Below, piece by piece: positions 8,125 through 17,092 of a DNA stretch of 37,494 nucleotides (the first letter of the stretch is position 1; each line of letters starts with the position of its first letter). The notes below the pieces were generated by a model, which had not been told where the DNA came from, did not search any database, and saw only the letters and a program-made list of their open reading frames with translations. Both the position numbers and the translations under genes were made by a program. The stretch comes from a virus, in IMG/VR virus record IMGVR_UViG_3300032309_002153, positions 1 through 37,494 of that record. One strand, given 5' to 3'.

Positions 8125-8365
8125 ACGCTTGTTATGCGTAAGATGTACGGGTACTGGTCGAATTATGGGCGGTGGAATGATATATGAAAATTGTCATTTG
8201 TGCTCTGGTAGTGGTAAATTAATACCTGCGACAGAAAAAGTTGACGTTGTTGTAGATAAGCGTAGCAAGACATATAAAGATGCTATAGCAAAGATAATGG
8301 AAGCGAGTGACGTATCTAAAGAAGAAGCGGCTCGTATTTTTGATGAAGAGTTTGAAAAGCTATGA
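8111..8365 (+). CDS. small zinc-binding protein with DnaJ-like CxxCxGxG motifs
   Basis: This 84-residue protein has two half-sites, CVRCTGTGRIMGGG (from residue 9) and CHLCSGSGKL, which match the CxxCxGxG zinc repeats of DnaJ. A helical acidic tail follows. It probably binds one zinc ion and may act in protein or nucleic-acid binding. Small phage proteins of this type often sit near terminase genes. Its stop overlaps the next start (ATGA). Confidence 0.7.
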   Translation: MESTKRLLCVRCTGTGRIMGGGMIYENCHLCSGSGKLIPATEKVDVVVDKRSKTYKDAIAKIMEASDVSKEEAARIFDEEFEKL

Positions 8366-8796
8366 AAAATGTTATGGACTTTAGCTCAGAGGTAGAGCGG
8401 CAAAAAAGCGATAAGCTTAATTGCGACGTGCGTGAGTTCGATTCTCACGGGGAACACCAACTTTTAGATGATGCTATATTTAGTGTAATTGCAAAAAAGT
8501 TTTCGTCTTTTAAGCATCAAATGCTAAAAGATGTAAATAGTTTTTTATTAAAGGCTGAATTTAAAGCCGATGAAATAAAAACAGGCCTTACATATTTACA
8601 AAAAGAAGAAATTAAAGCCCATTGCATGGATTATTTGCGCAGAGATTGCCCTACCCTGAGGCAATTAGAAGAGTGTAAATTGTTGTTCCTCCCGGTGACT
8701 ATTGGTATGCAAAACATTTATGATGAATTAAAAAAAGAAATTGGAAGCTTAAAACAAGAGCTTGACGATTTAAAACAAAAATTTGATAAACTGTAG
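8362..8796 (+). CDS. unknown protein with tRNA-derived N-terminal segment
   Basis: This 144-residue protein starts in an ATGA overlap with the zinc-binding gene. Residues 5-33 (DFSSEVERQKSDKLNCDVRE and on) are encoded by a tRNA-like sequence (8375-8459). The remainder is helical, ending in a heptad-like LKKEIGSLKQELDDLKQKF coiled coil. The coding frame runs through the tRNA-like part without a stop. A later start is possible, but no better one is visible. It lies directly before the small terminase gene. Confidence 0.65.
   Translation: MKNVMDFSSEVERQKSDKLNCDVREFDSHGEHQLLDDAIFSVIAKKFSSFKHQMLKDVNSFLLKAEFKADEIKTGLTYLQKEEIKAHCMDYLRRDCPTLRQLEECKLLFLPVTIGMQNIYDELKKEIGSLKQELDDLKQKFDKL
8375..8459 (+). 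ncRNA. tRNA-like element (intact elbow, broken acceptor and anticodon)
   Basis: The D arm is canonical: T8 A9, stem GCTC/GAGC (8384-8387, 8395-8398) and loop AGAGGTA with A14, G18, G19, A21. The T arm is canonical too: GTGAG TTCGATT CTCAC (8432-8448), with C48 before it. It is followed by 7 nt, a discriminator A and encoded CCA (8457-8459). The 5' strand of the acceptor (TGGACTT) does not pair with the 3' strand (GGGGAAC). The only anticodon-like stem (GCGAT/ATTGC, 8408-8424) has a loop without U33 and follows 9 nt where one is expected. It is therefore a tRNA mimic or a captured, degenerate tRNA, not a functional tRNA. Confidence 0.7.
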
Positions 8797-8805
8797 GAGA
8801 TTATT

Positions 8806-9261
8806 ATGCCTCAAGGCCGACCTACAACGTACACCCCTGAATTAGCCGCGTATGTTTGTGAAATGATAGCGACTCATACTTGTGGGTTAAAAAAATTAAC
8901 AAAAATGTATGAAAAATTTCCCAGTCAATCCACATTGTATGCTTGGATGACTTACGAGCCAAGTTTCTCGGGACAATATTTTGAAGCAAAAAGGCTACAA
9001 GCTAACTACTTAGCCGATTCTTTGCTCGATATGCCAGATGATTTGCCAACTTATATTGATGAAAAAGGCGTTGAAAGAATAGATCCCGGGATGCTTGGCC
9101 GGGAGAAGTTACGATATCAAATTAACGTTTGGCATGCTTCAAAATTGGCTCCCAAAGTTTACGGCGACAAAAAACAAGAAGAAACCAACACAGCTGACAC
9201 GCTCTCTAAGATTAAATCTCTTGTTGATGACTTAAACAAAATCAATAGTAGTGATATCTAA
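8806..9261 (+). CDS. terminase small subunit
   Basis: This 151-residue protein opens MPQGRPTTYTPELAAYVCEM, the start typical of Sf6/P22-like small terminases. An HTH region follows (KLTKMYEKFPSQSTLYAWMT) and then a helical central part (AKRLQANYLADSLLDMPDDL and HASKLAPKVYGDK). It recognises the packaging site and brings DNA to the large subunit. It lies directly upstream of the large terminase gene, and AGGAG precedes the ATG. Confidence 0.85.
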   Translation: MPQGRPTTYTPELAAYVCEMIATHTCGLKKLTKMYEKFPSQSTLYAWMTYEPSFSGQYFEAKRLQANYLADSLLDMPDDLPTYIDEKGVERIDPGMLGREKLRYQINVWHASKLAPKVYGDKKQEETNTADTLSKIKSLVDDLNKINSSDI

Positions 9262-9278
9262 CCATATAATGAGAGATA

Positions 9279-9317
9279 ATGAGCAAAAAAGTCGAAGACA
9301 TAATTAATGAATCCTAA
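9279..9317 (+). CDS. 12-codon upstream ORF overlapping terminase large subunit
   Basis: ATG 9279 opens MSKKVEDIINES and stops at 9317, 8 codons' worth of overlap shy of nothing else: it crosses the TerL ATG at 9307 in another frame. It could couple or tune translation of the large terminase, which otherwise has only a weak ribosome binding site. Evidence is limited to position and frame. Confidence 0.3.
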   Translation: MSKKVEDIINES

Positions 9318-10839
9318 CGAACAAGCGCAATTGATTTCAGATTTACAATCAAGTTTTTTTTTGTTTGTCAGAACTTTTTACCCATTACTAACAGCGCGTG
9401 ATTTCATCGTATCAAATCCACCGGGGCGCGAAAGCCACGTAATTACTATATGTCGTGAGCTTGTTAAAGTTGCAAAGCTCGAGACTAATAAACTGGTATT
9501 AAACGTGCCCCCAGGGCATGGCAAGAGCACGCTTTTAAGTATGTGGGTTGCTTGGACCATGGCAAAATATCCCGACTCGCGTTTTCTATATATATCTTAT
9601 TCACAAACGCTTGCAGCTACTCATACCGATGTGATTCGTCGGATTATGATGTTGCGGGAATATAGAGAGCTTTTTGGTGTTGAACTACGAGCTGACAGCA
9701 AAGCTAGAGACTTTTTTCAGACTACTGCAGGAGGAGCCGTGGGAGCTTTTGGCTCTTCTGGTGCTATTACCGGTCGTGACGCTGGGTTGCCTGGCCTTAA
9801 TCGTTTTAGCGGTGCTCTCATCTTAGATGATCCACACAAGCCGGACGAAGTATTTTCTGACACCATGCGCGAAAAGGTAATACATAATTATCGCGACACA
9901 ATACAACAGCGGCCACGTGGCATAAACGTACCATTTATAATGATAGGCCAGCGGCTTCACGAAGCAGACTTAGCGGCATATTTGTTGGCAGGTGAAGATG
10001 GCCACGATTGGAAACGAGTTATATTAAAGTCCATCGATGAGGCAGGCAATGCGTTATATCCCGAAGCTTTCCCGATTGAAATGCTGCGCATCAGACAAGA
10101 ACGAGATATATACGTTTTTGCAGCTCAACATCAACAAGACCCACAACCAGCAGGCGGTGCGGTGTTTAAGCAAGAATGGTTTGTTAAGCTAGATTTAGAA
10201 CCGATGATGATATCAACCTTCATCACAGCTGACACATCGGAGACGAATAAAGACTACAACGACGCAACAGTCTTTAGTTTTTTTGGTTTATATGAAATAG
10301 AAAACTTTGGTAGAAAAACAGGTGAGTACGGTTTGCATTGGATAGATTGCTTAGAAACACGAATCGAACCATGCGACTTACACAGCACGTTTATGGATTT
10401 CTGGGCTGGATGTATGAGACATAAAACACCTCCATTATTAGCAGCAATCGAGAAGAAAAGCACAGGAAGCACTTTGCTTTCATCGCTTAAAGAAGCCAGA
10501 GGCATGCAAGTACGAGATATACCGCGTAATGCGGCAAGTGGTAACAAAACTAAAAGATTCCTAGAATGTCAACCACATGTGGCAGCTAAAAAAATAAGCT
10601 TTACAACGGGAGCTAGGCACGCCGACATGTGTATCACTCACATGACTAAAATTACAGCAAACGAAACGCATCGCCATGACGATATTGCAGACACTCTTGC
10701 AGATGCTATTCGTATCGCTTTAATCGACAAAACACTAATCTATGCAAACACACAAAAAACAGATTATAATCAATTAGCACAATCTCTCATGTCATCAACA
10801 AATAAAGTTGATAGATTGCGTCAAAAAGCATATAAATAA
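9307..10839 (+). CDS. terminase large subunit
   Basis: This 510-residue packaging motor has Walker A VPPGHGKST at residues 67-75 and Walker B LILDDP at 171-176. The C-terminal RNase H-like nuclease has a first acidic motif in TADTSETNKDYNDAT (about 307-321) and a late HDDIADTLADAIRI. It translocates DNA into the prohead and makes the headful cut. The order TerS-TerL-portal is that of P22-like phages. The length is normal for the family. Confidence 0.95.
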   Translation: MNPNEQAQLISDLQSSFFLFVRTFYPLLTARDFIVSNPPGRESHVITICRELVKVAKLETNKLVLNVPPGHGKSTLLSMWVAWTMAKYPDSRFLYISYSQTLAATHTDVIRRIMMLREYRELFGVELRADSKARDFFQTTAGGAVGAFGSSGAITGRDAGLPGLNRFSGALILDDPHKPDEVFSDTMREKVIHNYRDTIQQRPRGINVPFIMIGQRLHEADLAAYLLAGEDGHDWKRVILKSIDEAGNALYPEAFPIEMLRIRQERDIYVFAAQHQQDPQPAGGAVFKQEWFVKLDLEPMMISTFITADTSETNKDYNDATVFSFFGLYEIENFGRKTGEYGLHWIDCLETRIEPCDLHSTFMDFWAGCMRHKTPPLLAAIEKKSTGSTLLSSLKEARGMQVRDIPRNAASGNKTKRFLECQPHVAAKKISFTTGARHADMCITHMTKITANETHRHDDIADTLADAIRIALIDKTLIYANTQKTDYNQLAQSLMSSTNKVDRLRQKAYK

Positions 10840-10866: not shown

Positions 10867-12957
10867 ATGCAAGTTGCTCAAAAACATCAAGCTCAACTCG
10901 AGCGGATTAAAAAAAACATCCAGGGCTCTTACGAGTATTTTCGCCATAACTACGAACGTTACAATGAATTTGTAAGATTTGTGTTCGAGTCAAATTTAAC
11001 GGGCGACGAAATAAATTTACTTCAAACGATGAACCGCCCACAGTTGGAATTTAATACCTTAGCCAGCCGAATTCATAGATTGCTCGGTGAGTTCTCAAAG
11101 CAAGAGCCAGATATTATGGTGACTTGTGATGATGAAAACCAAGTGGACTGGCACACACTAAAGGTCGTTGAACAGCATTTGCGCCATGTTTTATTAGACA
11201 TTGATAATCATCATACTCGCTACGAAGTTTACAAAGATGTTTTAGCAGGCGGATTTAGTACGCTTAAAGTTTACACCGATTATGCCAACCCTATGTCGAT
11301 GGATCAAGTCATTAAATTCGACAGGTGCGAACCCACGTTATGTGGTTTTGATAAGCTAGCCAAATTTTCCCACAAAGGTGATGGCAATTATTGTTTTGAA
11401 TTATTTCCTAAAACTAAAACAGATTTTGAAGAAGAATACCCAGGCGTAGATATATCCGAGGTATCATTCAGTCACGGTATAGGGGGATTTAACTGGTCAT
11501 ACATCAATGATCAAGAACCCATGTTGTTATGCGCTGATTACTACGAAAAGAAAAAAACTCGCGAAACCATTGTTAAGGTTCGTGATGGTCGCACTATGAT
11601 ATTGCGTGACTACGAAAAAATGGTTGAAGAGTGGAACGATATTACCGTACCACCCACATATGTAGGAGAGCCTCGCAAAACCATTCTTGATAAAATTGTC
11701 CGGTATCGTTTGATAGACAATCAAATACTAGAATATGTCGAGACTGACTATACAATGTTGCCGCTGGTATTTGTTGACGGCGCAAGCAACATGGTTAAGA
11801 CACACAAAAATGGTAACATTCGTCAAGTATGTTTGCCGTACGTTTATCACGCTAAAGGCGCTCAAAGGCTTAAGAACTTTGCTGGTAACTCACTAGCCAA
11901 CGAAATTGAAAATACGGTCCAACACAAATTTATGGTGGCCAAAGAAGCTCTTCCAAAAGAAGAGGAATTTATGGACGCTTACAAAGATGTGCAACGCGCC
12001 AACACACTTATTTTCAATTCGGTTCATGAATCCAATCCAGAAATGCCTATTTCCAATCCAATACGGGAAGTACAAAGAATTCCATGCCCACCCGAAATTG
12101 TCCAGGCATTTACTGGCGCAGACAGTTTAATGGAGCAAATATTAGGCTCATATGATGCAAGCCTTGGGATTAATAACAATCAACTCAGTGGTGTTGCAAT
12201 TGTTGAAGGGGCAACGCAATCCAACTCAGCAGCCATGCCATATGTTGTAGGATCTATGCAAGGATTTCAGCGGGCTAGCCAAATTTACGTTAATTGGTTG
12301 CCTAAATATTTCACCACCCCTCGCACAATACCAATAATGGATGCAGAAGGCAGGCGCAACTTCTTAAAGATAAATCAAAAAGATGGGATGCCTATGGATT
12401 TTGACACCAACGCATTGAACGTTGTGGTTAAAGCGGGCGTATCGTTCCAAATTCAAAAATCAAGAACCATTAATATGGTCAAGGAAGTCATGCAAATGTC
12501 ACCTGAATTTGCTAACTTTATTGGCACAAAAGGCATTAACTTTATTCTTGATAACGTTGAGGGTCGTGGTGTTGAGCAGCTTAAAGAAATGGTTGGCGAA
12601 TGGAAACAAGAACAAGAGCAAGCCAAACAACAAGCCATGCAAATGCAACAACAAGAAGCCATGAACAACCCTGCTATGATGAAAAATCAAGTAGACATGC
12701 AAAAGCTGCAGATGGAAGCCAAGAAAAACGAGGCACAATTTGCGGTAGACATGGAAAAGATTGAACTTGAAAAATATAAAACCGAGGCCAGCGTGCACAT
12801 GAACGAAACAAACGCTAGTGTTGGTTTGGTTCGAGCAAGCACGGAACGCATGGCTAAGCATGTTGACTTAGAGATTAAGAAAATGGGCATGGCTCATAAT
12901 CATTTAAAAGAAGCCATTGAATTGCATCACATGAAAGAGCAACCTAATCATGCTTAA
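10867..12957 (+). CDS. portal protein, P22 gp1-like
   Basis: This 696-residue protein is similar in length to the P22 portal (725). Its N-terminal half has features such as GDEINLLQTMNRPQLEFN and LLGEFSKQEPDIMV that are typical of the P22-portal family. The C-terminal ~120 residues are Gln-, Met- and Lys-rich coiled coil (QEQEQAKQQAMQMQQQEAM), fitting the helical barrel of P22-type portals. It forms the dodecameric DNA entry vertex. GAGGACG precedes the ATG, and the stop overlaps the next gene. Confidence 0.93.
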   Translation: MQVAQKHQAQLERIKKNIQGSYEYFRHNYERYNEFVRFVFESNLTGDEINLLQTMNRPQLEFNTLASRIHRLLGEFSKQEPDIMVTCDDENQVDWHTLKVVEQHLRHVLLDIDNHHTRYEVYKDVLAGGFSTLKVYTDYANPMSMDQVIKFDRCEPTLCGFDKLAKFSHKGDGNYCFELFPKTKTDFEEEYPGVDISEVSFSHGIGGFNWSYINDQEPMLLCADYYEKKKTRETIVKVRDGRTMILRDYEKMVEEWNDITVPPTYVGEPRKTILDKIVRYRLIDNQILEYVETDYTMLPLVFVDGASNMVKTHKNGNIRQVCLPYVYHAKGAQRLKNFAGNSLANEIENTVQHKFMVAKEALPKEEEFMDAYKDVQRANTLIFNSVHESNPEMPISNPIREVQRIPCPPEIVQAFTGADSLMEQILGSYDASLGINNNQLSGVAIVEGATQSNSAAMPYVVGSMQGFQRASQIYVNWLPKYFTTPRTIPIMDAEGRRNFLKINQKDGMPMDFDTNALNVVVKAGVSFQIQKSRTINMVKEVMQMSPEFANFIGTKGINFILDNVEGRGVEQLKEMVGEWKQEQEQAKQQAMQMQQQEAMNNPAMMKNQVDMQKLQMEAKKNEAQFAVDMEKIELEKYKTEASVHMNETNASVGLVRASTERMAKHVDLEIKKMGMAHNHLKEAIELHHMKEQPNHA

Positions 12958-13660: not shown

Positions 13661-14515
13661 ATGAGTATTGCTAAGATTTACCAATTACCTACAATGATTC
13701 CGGGTACAGTTGGCGTGTTGCCTAATCAAAAATCTATGGTATGCGGAAACACATTAGAAGAAGTAACTACAGCTGGTTTTTTAAGCAGAACAAGTTTGGA
13801 AGGTTACCCAGTATCCACTAATGATGTGCTTCAAGTTTTTTATAATTATAACCAACAAACACAAGTTGGTGACTATGCAACATTTACCGTTGAAATTAAT
13901 AACGGTGTAATTACTTTGGTTCAAGTAGGCGCTGCAAGTGGTGGCGTTATTTTACCAGTTGTGGATGGTAATTTTGCTGTTTTTGCAGGCACTGATGGCA
14001 CTATTGCAGACATCGGTGTATCTCCCACAGGGCCTGGATTTGCTAAAGTAGTTTCATTTAATGATTTAGGTGAGCCAATTACCGAAGGGGATTTTGCTGT
14101 TTTCACTGACACGGACGGCAGCATAACTAACACTGGCTTGTCTCCAACCAATTCAGCTTTCCGAAAAGTTACTACGTTTAAAGATTTAGAAAATCCAATA
14201 TCCGGCAACCTTGCCATGTTTGCAGATGACTACGGCAGCATCGAAGACTCCGCAATCATTGCTACTGATGTGCAATTGAAATCTAGCGTGATAGCTGGCA
14301 AAGCAAACGTTACAGGGGGCGGAGCTGGTCCATACATTATTTCTGTACCAGGATGCTTAGAAACTAGCGTATTGTGCGTAACATTAAATCAGTCGGAATT
14401 ACCTGTATCATTGGTTCGTGCTTTTCCAGCTAACAACGAAATTGTTGTTGGATTAAATGCAGATCCAGGAACTATAGGAATTATAAGTTACATTGTTTAT
14501 AAAATCCCTCAGTAA
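13661..14515 (+). CDS. structural protein with repeated GDFAVF/TDGS motif
   Basis: This 284-residue protein contains about three imperfect repeats of the form NFAVFAGTDGTIADIGVSPT, GDFAVFTDTDGSITNTGLSP and NLAMFADDYGSIEDSAI (about residues 105-205). Similar repeats are common in phage virion proteins such as decoration or fibre proteins. The C-terminal ~70 residues form a separate beta-rich domain. It lies between portal and scaffold and is probably a head decoration or tail-associated protein. AAAGGA precedes the ATG. Confidence 0.65.
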   Translation: MSIAKIYQLPTMIPGTVGVLPNQKSMVCGNTLEEVTTAGFLSRTSLEGYPVSTNDVLQVFYNYNQQTQVGDYATFTVEINNGVITLVQVGAASGGVILPVVDGNFAVFAGTDGTIADIGVSPTGPGFAKVVSFNDLGEPITEGDFAVFTDTDGSITNTGLSPTNSAFRKVTTFKDLENPISGNLAMFADDYGSIEDSAIIATDVQLKSSVIAGKANVTGGGAGPYIISVPGCLETSVLCVTLNQSELPVSLVRAFPANNEIVVGLNADPGTIGIISYIVYKIPQ

Positions 14516-14525
14516 TCCCAATTAT

Positions 14526-14560
14526 TTTTATTGCCTAGGATTTTCCCCTGGGCAATAAAA
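14526..14560. terminator. bidirectional hairpin between convergent genes
   Basis: TTTTATTGCC/GGCAATAAAA is extended inward by TAGG/CCTG (one G-T pair) to a 14-bp stem with a 7-nt loop. It lies between the end of the 13661 gene and the stop of the small reverse gene. U-rich flanks on both sides suit termination in both directions. Confidence 0.65.
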
Positions 14561-14710
14561 TTATTTGCCGCTATCAATTTTAGCAATAATAATCATTAGC
14601 GACTCTACAATTTTATTGTAGGTTGTTCTTAACAATTCTTTGTCTGCTGTACTAGATAGTCCTTGTACGTATTCTTTCAGCCCCTCCAGCATTTCATTTT
14701 CTTTTTCCAT
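14561..14710 (-). CDS. 49-residue protein on the reverse strand
   Basis: MEKENEMLEGLKEYVQGLSS, then TADKELLRTTYNKIVESLMI and IIAKIDSGK is a clean helical ORF with AAAGGA before the ATG. It is the only gene on the minus strand within the head operon and converges on the hairpin at 14526. No family recognised. Its transcript would start within or near the structured region that follows. Confidence 0.6.
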   Translation of the reverse strand: MEKENEMLEGLKEYVQGLSSTADKELLRTTYNKIVESLMIIIAKIDSGK

Positions 14711-14749
14711 TACAAATCCTTTGTTTTTAAATTTATTGGTGAAATTATT

Positions 14750-14965
14750 TGTTCGGCACGAACAGGGTTTATGTCGAAATTTGTTCGTGCAGAATAAGTA
14801 TAAATTAACGCGGCGATTAGAACCCTATTGCGCTTAAAAAAATACTGACGTAAAATGTCAGTAAGTGACGTAGATTGTCACTATTGCGCAAAACGAGACC
14901 TATGCGTTAATTAGGGAATCAACCGTAATACGGGTTAAATATTCGAGATTCGCGCGATATGCGAA
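14750..14965 (+). ncRNA. structured RNA leader of the scaffold gene
   Basis: Perfect complementary pairs seen by eye: P0 GCACGAACA 14756-14764 with TGTTCGTGC 14782-14790; P1 ATTAACGC 14804-14811 with GCGTTAAT 14904-14911; P2 TTGCGC 14828-14833 with GCGCAA 14886-14891; P3 14844-14849 with 14857-14862; P4 14864-14869 with 14877-14882; P5 TTCGC 14949-14953 with GCGAA 14961-14965. P2 encloses P3 and P4, and P1 encloses P2. P3, P4 and P5 all have 7-nt loops. CCCTA 14823-14827 could pair with TAGGG 14912-14916 as a pseudoknot across P1. CGAACA (14759-14764) can also pair with TGTTCG at 14750-14755. No coding frame explains it. The scaffold gene starts 50 nt later. Confidence 0.75.
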
Positions 14966-15014
14966 GGCCATAAGGGCAAACCGTGATGGGGTTAACAGTC
15001 GAAGGATGTAGATA

Positions 15015-15731
15015 ATGGAAGAAATGAATTTGGGTCAAAGTTCAGAAGCATCAGCTCCTGTAACAAGCTCGGCTCCGGTAGAAACATCAGCGCCTAGCGA
15101 AAAGTCATTGCCTCAATCACAAGTAAACGAATTGATTGGACGCGCCAAACACGAAGCTATTGAGTCGTATAAACGTCAACAATCTAATTCGCAAGGTCAG
15201 GCTGCTCCCAGCAATTACAAAAATGAAACTGCTGAAAGTATGTCAGAGTCAAATTACCGAAAGATTGCGGCCGAAGAAGCTCAACGATTAAGAGACCAAT
15301 GGGTTTCTGATGCACAGAGCAGATCGGAACAAGAAAATGCACAGCGTATTGTTCAGACCTTCTGGGATAAAATGGCAGCAGGAAAAGAGTCTTACGAAGA
15401 TTTTGACAAAATAACGAGCGATATCGAATACGCTAGATTTCCTAATGTGGTACAGCTTTTAGCCGAACACATTGATAACTCGCATGACGTACTATACGAG
15501 CTAGGAAAAGATAGATTGAAGATGGCGCAGCTTGAGCAATTATCTCAAATGTCACCTAAAGACGCACTTGTTCACACGAGACGTTTAGCGGAATCGATCA
15601 AAGAGAATCAAGCAGCAAATCGCATCAAATACCCAAATGCACCATTGTCGCAACAACGTCCTTCTACCAGTGGAACGGAATCAGGGGGCGCTTTGTCATT
15701 TGCTCAATTAAAGGCGAAATACAAGGGATAG
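15015..15731 (+). CDS. scaffolding protein, P22 gp8-like
   Basis: This 238-residue, Ser/Ala/Gln-rich, helical and highly charged protein lies directly before the coat gene, the position of P22 gene 8 (303 residues). The N-terminus is disordered (ASAPVTSSAPVETSAPSEKS). A long helical middle contains EEAQRLRDQWVSDAQSRSEQ, and the C-terminus GGALSFAQLKAKYKG is basic, as in coat-binding scaffold tails. It directs procapsid assembly and exits before packaging. In P22, scaffold synthesis is autoregulated after transcription. The structured leader upstream may relate to that. Confidence 0.85.
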   Translation: MEEMNLGQSSEASAPVTSSAPVETSAPSEKSLPQSQVNELIGRAKHEAIESYKRQQSNSQGQAAPSNYKNETAESMSESNYRKIAAEEAQRLRDQWVSDAQSRSEQENAQRIVQTFWDKMAAGKESYEDFDKITSDIEYARFPNVVQLLAEHIDNSHDVLYELGKDRLKMAQLEQLSQMSPKDALVHTRRLAESIKENQAANRIKYPNAPLSQQRPSTSGTESGGALSFAQLKAKYKG

Positions 15732-15775: not shown

Positions 15776-17092
15776 ATGTCTACATTTCCTAATAATATTT
15801 TGCAACAAGTCCAAACCTACCAACGTTCTGGTTTGGCATTAATGCAAAACTTGTGCTGCCATGTATCTACAGCAAACACAAAGTTTAAAGATTTTGAAAA
15901 AGTTCAAGCAAACTTAGGTTCTGTAGTTACCTTTGATTTACCACCACGTGCTGTAACTAGCGCCGGATTGGTTGCTGTATTTCAACCAGCAGACCAACGT
16001 GTGTTATCTTTGACTGCCGATCAAGCCAACAACAGTTCTTTTGCTGTTACATCTCAACAACGTATATTCAACTTAGAAAAAGGCGAAGATGATTACATGC
16101 GTGTATTCGGACGTAGCTTTGTTGCAGAATTAGCAACTCAAGTTGAGGGCAATATTGCTCTTAACTGGGCGTCTGGTGTACGCAGTCAATTAGATGGTAC
16201 GCTTAATACGGCATCAGGCCCATATCGTTTCTTTGGTAATGGTTCTACGGCATTATCTTCATATCAACAATTAGCACAAGCCGTAATGCTATTTAAAACC
16301 TACGGTTCTGTATCTCAAGGCATTAAAGTTTATTTGCCTGATAGTGTTACACCAAGTATCATTGGTAACGGTTTAAATCAATTTGCTCCAGAAAGAAACA
16401 ACAAAGACGCAATGAGTTGGGAACTTGGTGAGTTTGGTTCACCACGCGTAGAATATTACTCATCAAACTTGATGCCTATTCATGTATCTGGTAATACTGG
16501 GGTGTTGGGTCAAAGATTGACTGTTGTAAGCACTAACGATCCAACAGGCCAAAACGTTACTCAAATCACAGTAAGCGGTGCTACAGCAAATGATGCGCAA
16601 GCTGTTTTCTCTGGCGATTTGATGCAATTTGCTGATGGCGTAACTGGCAAGCCTGATATGAGATATTTGACATTCATTGGTCATTTCCCATCAGTGAGCC
16701 CAGTCCAATTTCGTATTACACAAGACGCTGCGGCTGATGGTAGCGGAAATGTAGTTCTTACAATTACGCCTGGTCTTAACTCAGCTGGTGGTAATACTCA
16801 AAACTTGAATAATCCTATTCAAGCTGGAATGGAAATTTTAACATTCCCATCACATCGTTGTGGCGGTATTTTGGGTGGCGATGCGTTATATTTAGCAATG
16901 CCACAATTACCAGAACAATCACCCTACGACACAGCCAACGAATATGATGATACGACTGGTGTTTCACTTCGTTTAACATACGGTTCTTTGTTCGGTCAAA
17001 ACCAAACGGGTATGATTTACGACGAAGTTCATGGCTCCGTACTTGTTCCCGAGTACTCCTTGCGCTTTATGATTCCAATGTCACAAGGTTAA
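15776..17092 (+). CDS. major coat protein, P22 gp5-like
   Basis: This 438-residue protein is close to the P22 coat in length (430). Recognisable stretches include FKDFEKVQANLGSVVTFDLP near residue 40 and EDDYMRVFGRSFVAELATQV near 120. Ending near YSLRFMIPMSQG, it has the HK97-fold arrangement of the P22 family, including a mid-protein insertion domain. Forms the icosahedral shell. AAGGATGCCAAAATG gives a good ribosome binding site. The codon choice is even and gene-like, as for a highly expressed protein. Confidence 0.92.
   Translation: MSTFPNNILQQVQTYQRSGLALMQNLCCHVSTANTKFKDFEKVQANLGSVVTFDLPPRAVTSAGLVAVFQPADQRVLSLTADQANNSSFAVTSQQRIFNLEKGEDDYMRVFGRSFVAELATQVEGNIALNWASGVRSQLDGTLNTASGPYRFFGNGSTALSSYQQLAQAVMLFKTYGSVSQGIKVYLPDSVTPSIIGNGLNQFAPERNNKDAMSWELGEFGSPRVEYYSSNLMPIHVSGNTGVLGQRLTVVSTNDPTGQNVTQITVSGATANDAQAVFSGDLMQFADGVTGKPDMRYLTFIGHFPSVSPVQFRITQDAAADGSGNVVLTITPGLNSAGGNTQNLNNPIQAGMEILTFPSHRCGGILGGDALYLAMPQLPEQSPYDTANEYDDTTGVSLRLTYGSLFGQNQTGMIYDEVHGSVLVPEYSLRFMIPMSQG

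Follow-up and report, generated by a model that had tools for sequence, protein, structure and literature searches.

The scaffolding protein of phage P22 limits its own synthesis post-transcriptionally, as shown by genetics, and we know of no RNA target of this autoregulation. Pseudoknot operators have been described for other genes. In gene 32 of T4 and T2 the gene product binds a pseudoknot in the mRNA leader and controls its own translation; this single pseudoknot precedes the start codon by 67 nt and acts as the nucleation site for cooperative binding across an unstructured region (PMC3014915). The translational operator of the gene for ribosomal protein S15 (rpsO) also contains a pseudoknot (PMC3014915), and the STAXI motif (RF01728) is a pseudoknot that is repeated two or more times (PMC2864571).

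The leader described here, which precedes the scaffold gene of a P22-like phage, shares with gene 32 the presence of a pseudoknot in a phage mRNA leader, but it comprises two units, the last of which abuts the Shine-Dalgarno sequence of a structural gene. The rpsO operator has a single pseudoknot and belongs to a cellular ribosomal protein gene, in contrast to the tandem units in front of a phage capsid gene. Like STAXI, the scaffold leaders carry at least two H-type pseudoknots in tandem; STAXI, however, is enterobacterial, lies near DNA-handling genes and frequently has UUCG tetraloops, whereas the scaffold leaders keep a fixed distance to the start codon. An association with DNA-handling genes was not observed, as all leaders examined precede the scaffold gene, and the RF01728 model has no match in the leader. 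With P22 gene 8 the locus has gene function and head-gene order in common, but the cultured P22-like phages examined have little or no gap between portal and scaffold and no such element. A conserved pseudoknot near the ribosome-binding site of the controlled gene, which characterizes autogenous pseudoknot operators, is present in the leader. The leader would most likely work like the operators of gene 32 and rpsO, while differing in tandem layout, position and gene.

Neither the window nor 21 relatives matched any family of Rfam 15 at gathering score. Scanned permissively against Rfam, the leader and five loci gave chance matches only, plus an unrelated int-alpA RNA (RF02996) in L038, which scores above the gathering threshold and is located at 8307-8371, downstream of the coat gene and about 4 kb away. 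No description of a tandem-pseudoknot scaffold leader was found in the literature searched, a search that left most subscription journals and preprints outside its scope.

The window, i.e. the whole IMG/VR virus record IMGVR_UViG_3300032309_002153 with 37,494 bases, encodes a P22-like head module. Its coat protein lacks a close cultured relative, the best match being Vibrio phage VvAW1 with 25% identity, and no similar DNA was found in cultured phages. The leader is located in the intergenic stretch preceding the scaffold gene. Its conserved core consists of two tandem H-type pseudoknots with a small hairpin between them, spans positions 14894-15000 and reaches the Shine-Dalgarno sequence. Both units (14894-14943 and 14944-15000) follow the same plan, namely a hairpin (GAGAC, 4-5 bp, loop mostly with CG) and then a small H-type pseudoknot of the typical form A-CC-GU-NNN-G-GG-G-(0-7 nt)-AAUA-N'N'N', where S1 is CC/GG and S2 is NNN/N'N'N'. 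PK1 of the window represents a longer form, CCG-U-AAUA-CGG-GUUAAA-UAUU. The features are as follows:

8806-9261: small terminase gene
9307-10839: large terminase gene
10867-12957: portal gene
13661-14515: gene of unknown function, 284 aa
14828-14891, plus strand: facultative upstream domain with the P0 stem TTGCGC (14828-14833) / GCGCAA (14886-14891)
14894-14915, plus strand: hairpin A1 of unit 1, CGAGAC, stem CCTA (14899-14902) / TAGG (14912-14915), loop UGCGUUAAU, based on the alignment and pair counts
14922-14943, plus strand: PK1 of unit 1, S1 CCG (14923-14925) / CGG (14931-14933)
14927-14930 and 14940-14943, plus strand: S2 of PK1, AAUA / UAUU, 100% paired, loop 3 A-rich
14944-14965, plus strand: hairpin A2 of unit 2, CGAGA, stem TTCGC (14949-14953) / GCGAA (14961-14965), loop GCGAUAU
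14967-14977, plus strand: small hairpin GCC/GGC inserted between A2 and PK2, recognized by eye
14980-15000, plus strand: PK2 of unit 2, ACCGU-GAU-GGGG-UU-AACA-GUC
14981-14982 and 14989-14990, plus strand: S1 of PK2, CC / GG
14985-14987 and 14998-15000, plus strand: S2 of PK2, GAU / GUC
15001-15006, plus strand: Shine-Dalgarno sequence GAAGGA, directly 3' of PK2
15015-15731, plus strand: scaffold gene, 238 aa, PHROG 8865 head scaffolding protein, with its ATG at 15015, 8 nt past GAAGGA
15776-17092, plus strand: P22-like coat gene, next in the operon after scaffold

The GCC/GGC hairpin is a variable insertion that is also present in L062, L086, L162 and L184. A strong terminator-like hairpin 3' of the 284-aa gene (14519-14567) may insulate the transcript of scaffold and coat from the genes preceding it. 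Between this gene and the leader, a short ORF that has a ribosome-binding site of its own runs divergently on the minus strand (14566-14712); many relatives have a divergent gene at this position, which by eye resembles an HTH (AlpA-like) regulator. Both contig ends (1-1300 and 36200-37280) contain dense GTNACCG repeats, which encode minus-strand ORFs with Gly/Tyr/Asp-rich repeats.

Most relatives were chosen by coat-protein similarity alone, independent of the RNA. The window coat as query yielded 80 IMG/VR loci with 75-82% identity; a scaffold gene is present at almost all of them, and their upstream regions share a common tandem motif immediately before the Shine-Dalgarno sequence. In an alignment of 50 leaders the proposed structure is paired in 93.0% of the cells, whereas pairing drops to 31-50% if the partners are slid by 1-3 columns. 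Two-sided changes were found in 15 of the 18 pairs and amount to 133 cells versus 33.5 in shuffles, a value that none of 500 shuffles reached. For the S2 helices, inaccessible to a nested predictor, the paired fraction is 100% and 96.6% of the cells, and all three pairs of the PK1 S2 show two-sided changes. RNAalifold independently calls hairpin A1 and both S1 stems from the same alignment. The unpaired positions GAGAC, GU and AAUA are strongly conserved among the aligned leaders. The alignment of 50 rows includes the window, whose later match to the covariance model is therefore given by construction. The initial annotation had proposed a structured RNA leader before the scaffold gene and had made covariation among relatives its own test; this covariation is strong, and the conserved pairing bears the proposal out.

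With S2 defined by position only, 106 of 117 nonredundant leaders have PK2, and its three S2 pairs are formed in 90, 104 and 104 of these 106. Among the 55 unique PK2 strings 45 are fully paired, compared to 22.9 after shuffling (maximum 31), and the S2 pair types include GAU/GUC, GAC/GUC, AGC/GCU, GGC/GCC, GGU/ACC, CAC/GUG and UAC/GUA. Searching each leader freely for its best pseudoknot was too permissive to establish significance alone, and a positional test was used for PK1 instead.

The stems that had been proposed from the window do occur in its sequence: TGTTCG/CGAACA at 14750-14764 with a second TGTTCG at 14782-14787; AATTAACGC (14803-14811) as complement of GCGTTAATT (14904-14912); the TTGCGC/GCGCAA stem enclosing TACTGAC-7-GTCAGTA (14843-14863) and AGTGAC-7-GTCACT (14864-14882); AACCG/CGGGTT at 14921-14936; and TTCGC/GCGAA at 14949-14965. 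The region 14720-15014 is also more stable than its dinucleotide shuffles (z -3.89, 0 of 200). The AACCG stem corresponds to the conserved PK1 and TTCGC/GCGAA to the conserved hairpin A2, but most of the other stems are not conserved. For the enclosing, long-range stem P1 and for other alternative pairings the family means are at or near the shuffle means, and the alternative pairing of CGAACA with TGTTCG is not conserved across the family. The minimum-energy fold is misleading for this leader because it is unable to hold pseudoknots. The idea of a pseudoknot was right, but its placement was incomplete, since the interval ended at 14965 and missed PK2 (14980-15000), the most conserved part. 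Three further candidates were rejected. A conserved switch pairing of AATTAACGC with the A1 loop and of AACCCTATTGCG with PK2 is strong in the window alone, but not in the family; a pairing between the A1 loop and the 5' side of PK1 is limited to one clade, and by eye it does not track changes in the loop; and an operator family TGAC-N7-GTCA, with seven occurrences in the window versus 0.25 expected, is absent from relatives, and its matches outside the leader fall within a gene or within the low-complexity GTNACCG repeat genes that lie at both ends of the contig.

The twin hairpins do not belong to the conserved core, but they have a topological counterpart with other sequences in about half of the close relatives. 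Just 5' of unit 1, within approximately 25 nt, 33 of 67 close relatives (e.g. L018, L052, L071 and L085) harbor a hairpin with an ANGGAN hexaloop and a covarying stem, versus 0.42 in shuffles. It is enclosed by the P0 stem, which ends just before unit 1 and has a mean length of 6.3 bp, compared to 5.4 bp for re-paired flanks (maximum 6.0). ANGGA loops are of the CsrA/RsmA type, and the Shine-Dalgarno sequence AGAAGGA could be a second CsrA/RsmA-like site in the relatives with this hairpin. The upstream domain of the window has the same topology of P0 plus twin hairpins, with the loops GUAAAAU and GUAGAUU; loops of the CsrA type are absent from the window. As these loops differ from ANGGAN, the twin hairpins represent the facultative domain in a local version at best. 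Near-consensus sigma70 promoters (TTGACA-16/17-TATGAT, TAAAAT or TACAAT) precede unit 1 by 48-58 nt in six relatives; a promoter score of 11/12 was obtained for 8 of 107 leaders versus 0.7% of shuffles, and the window has no promoter better than chance. In the L018-like clade an AT-rich motif around TTAATATT and TTCATACCGCTTAATAC recurs about 100-120 nt upstream of unit 1 and is a possible late-promoter or activator site.

Scanning viral contigs for the PK2-core pattern retrieved at least 120 stretches, a set that is biased towards the pattern; among the matches listed, those whose S2 is paired are nearly all located before a scaffold-like gene. A search with divergent coats, for which the RNA was not consulted, revealed a PK2-like element in 53 of 66 nonredundant leaders among the matches listed. 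In 44 of these 53, again among the matches listed, PK2 is fully paired as parsed and several others are merely register-shifted; alternative S1 sequences such as CGG/CCG occur in this set. The PK1 form of the divergent group, S1(3)-A-NNNAU-S1'-G-..AA-AUN'N'N'-CG, has 137 of 145 S2 cells paired versus 116.9 in shuffles (maximum 126), and the sequence of PK1 varies freely provided that pairing is kept. Among leader-bearing phages the scaffold proteins share only 19-49% pairwise identity, hence the leader architecture is kept across divergent phages. The distance from the end of PK2 to the start codon has a median of 13 nt and amounts to 10-17 nt in 102 of 106 leaders; in one divergent group S2 continues straight into the Shine-Dalgarno sequence (CAGUG-AGGU). 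In each of 20 phage contigs the covariance model identifies a single credible site, and the tandem element is located before the scaffold gene in all leaders examined. By partly visual inspection, L161 (3964-4134), L209 and L197 apparently contain more than two pseudoknot units.

The covariance model had no match in 12 cultured or deposited P22-like regions, P22 itself not being among these, and tandem pseudoknots of this kind were not found in the scaffold upstream regions of cultured P22-like phages. Where the scaffold is annotated right after the portal in such regions, no more than about 100 nt separate the two genes. A search for prophage copies in 398 genomes of one phylum returned a single match, the query genome itself. 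In L272, L275 and L285, which represent the distant cultured phages BA3 and X14 and a bacterial genome locus, a hairpin ACC[AG]GUG...CAC[UC]GGG is located upstream of scaffold, followed by an A/U-rich stretch that ends with UCG near the scaffold start; it is possibly a remote single-unit analogue.

Tandem pseudoknots, each placed after a hairpin, with pairing conserved over sequence, are thus found once per genome with PK2 against the Shine-Dalgarno sequence. We read the leader as a probable cis-acting translational control element (operator) of the scaffold gene (rough probability 0.6), because of the position of PK2 against the Shine-Dalgarno sequence, the fixed spacing and the compensatory changes. 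The 30S subunit would have to unfold or displace PK2 for translation to start, so that the rate of scaffold synthesis would be set by the folding of the tandem units or by a ligand that binds there, and the presence of two units may provide cooperativity or room for a dimeric ligand. Given the autoregulation of the P22 scaffold, free scaffold protein is the leading candidate ligand: by analogy, unassembled scaffold may repress its own synthesis as in P22, a proposal that we favor over any other ligand but hold at somewhat less than even odds. The absence of the leader from the cultured P22-like phages examined implies that scaffold autoregulation does not require it. Moreover, the PK2 core is far more conserved than the scaffold proteins, and the ligand may accordingly be the ribosome, the coat or a host protein, or the role may be ligand-free.

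Binding of another phage protein (coat, portal) or of a conserved host protein, e.g. a ribosomal one, would link the production of scaffold either to the supply of coat or to the translation machinery. The coat is encoded by the next gene and is better conserved than the scaffold across leader-bearing phages (mean 50% versus 31%), which fits the conservation of the PK2 core better; the exclusive location of the element before the scaffold gene argues against this explanation, and we regard it as rather unlikely. The same low probability is assigned to a fixed, ligand-free element that tunes translation or protects the mRNA, thereby providing a defined Shine-Dalgarno state and setting the scaffold:coat ratio. 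The fixed start-codon spacing, the extension of S2 into the Shine-Dalgarno sequence in divergent members and the tolerance of PK1 for any sequence that still pairs would be expected of such an element, but the conserved unpaired GAGAC, GU and AAUA together with the tandem duplication suggest recognition. Translational riboswitches may be arranged in tandem and have small pseudoknots against the Shine-Dalgarno sequence. A metabolite or ion riboswitch, with a tandem layout for cooperativity, would share both traits with the leader, but it is improbable given the restriction to a structural gene and the lack of any Rfam riboswitch match. Finally, the perfect dyads TGAC-N7-GTCA at 14846 and 14866 and TGTTCG-N3-CGAACA at 14750 would suit an operator, packaging site or origin at the DNA level, a role that is highly improbable because the compensatory changes and the fixed start-codon spacing point to mRNA, the pairing including the crossing helices is conserved on one strand beside the start codon, and the leader dyads were not found in relatives.

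Returning to translational control of the scaffold gene, the conserved pairing may define a widespread, previously undescribed RNA family, in which tandem pseudoknots at the ribosome-binding site of the scaffold gene are the target of the scaffold itself or of another assembly protein, and assembly sets scaffold translation; we advance this broader proposal tentatively. The scaffold is needed in the correct ratio to the coat, and the leader provides a compact, covariation-supported candidate for an RNA target. It adds a structured RNA family, present in many environmental phages, to a phage group without a close cultured member. If the proposal is true, capsid assembly itself would tune the translation of scaffold in a very large, uncultured clade of P22-like phages.
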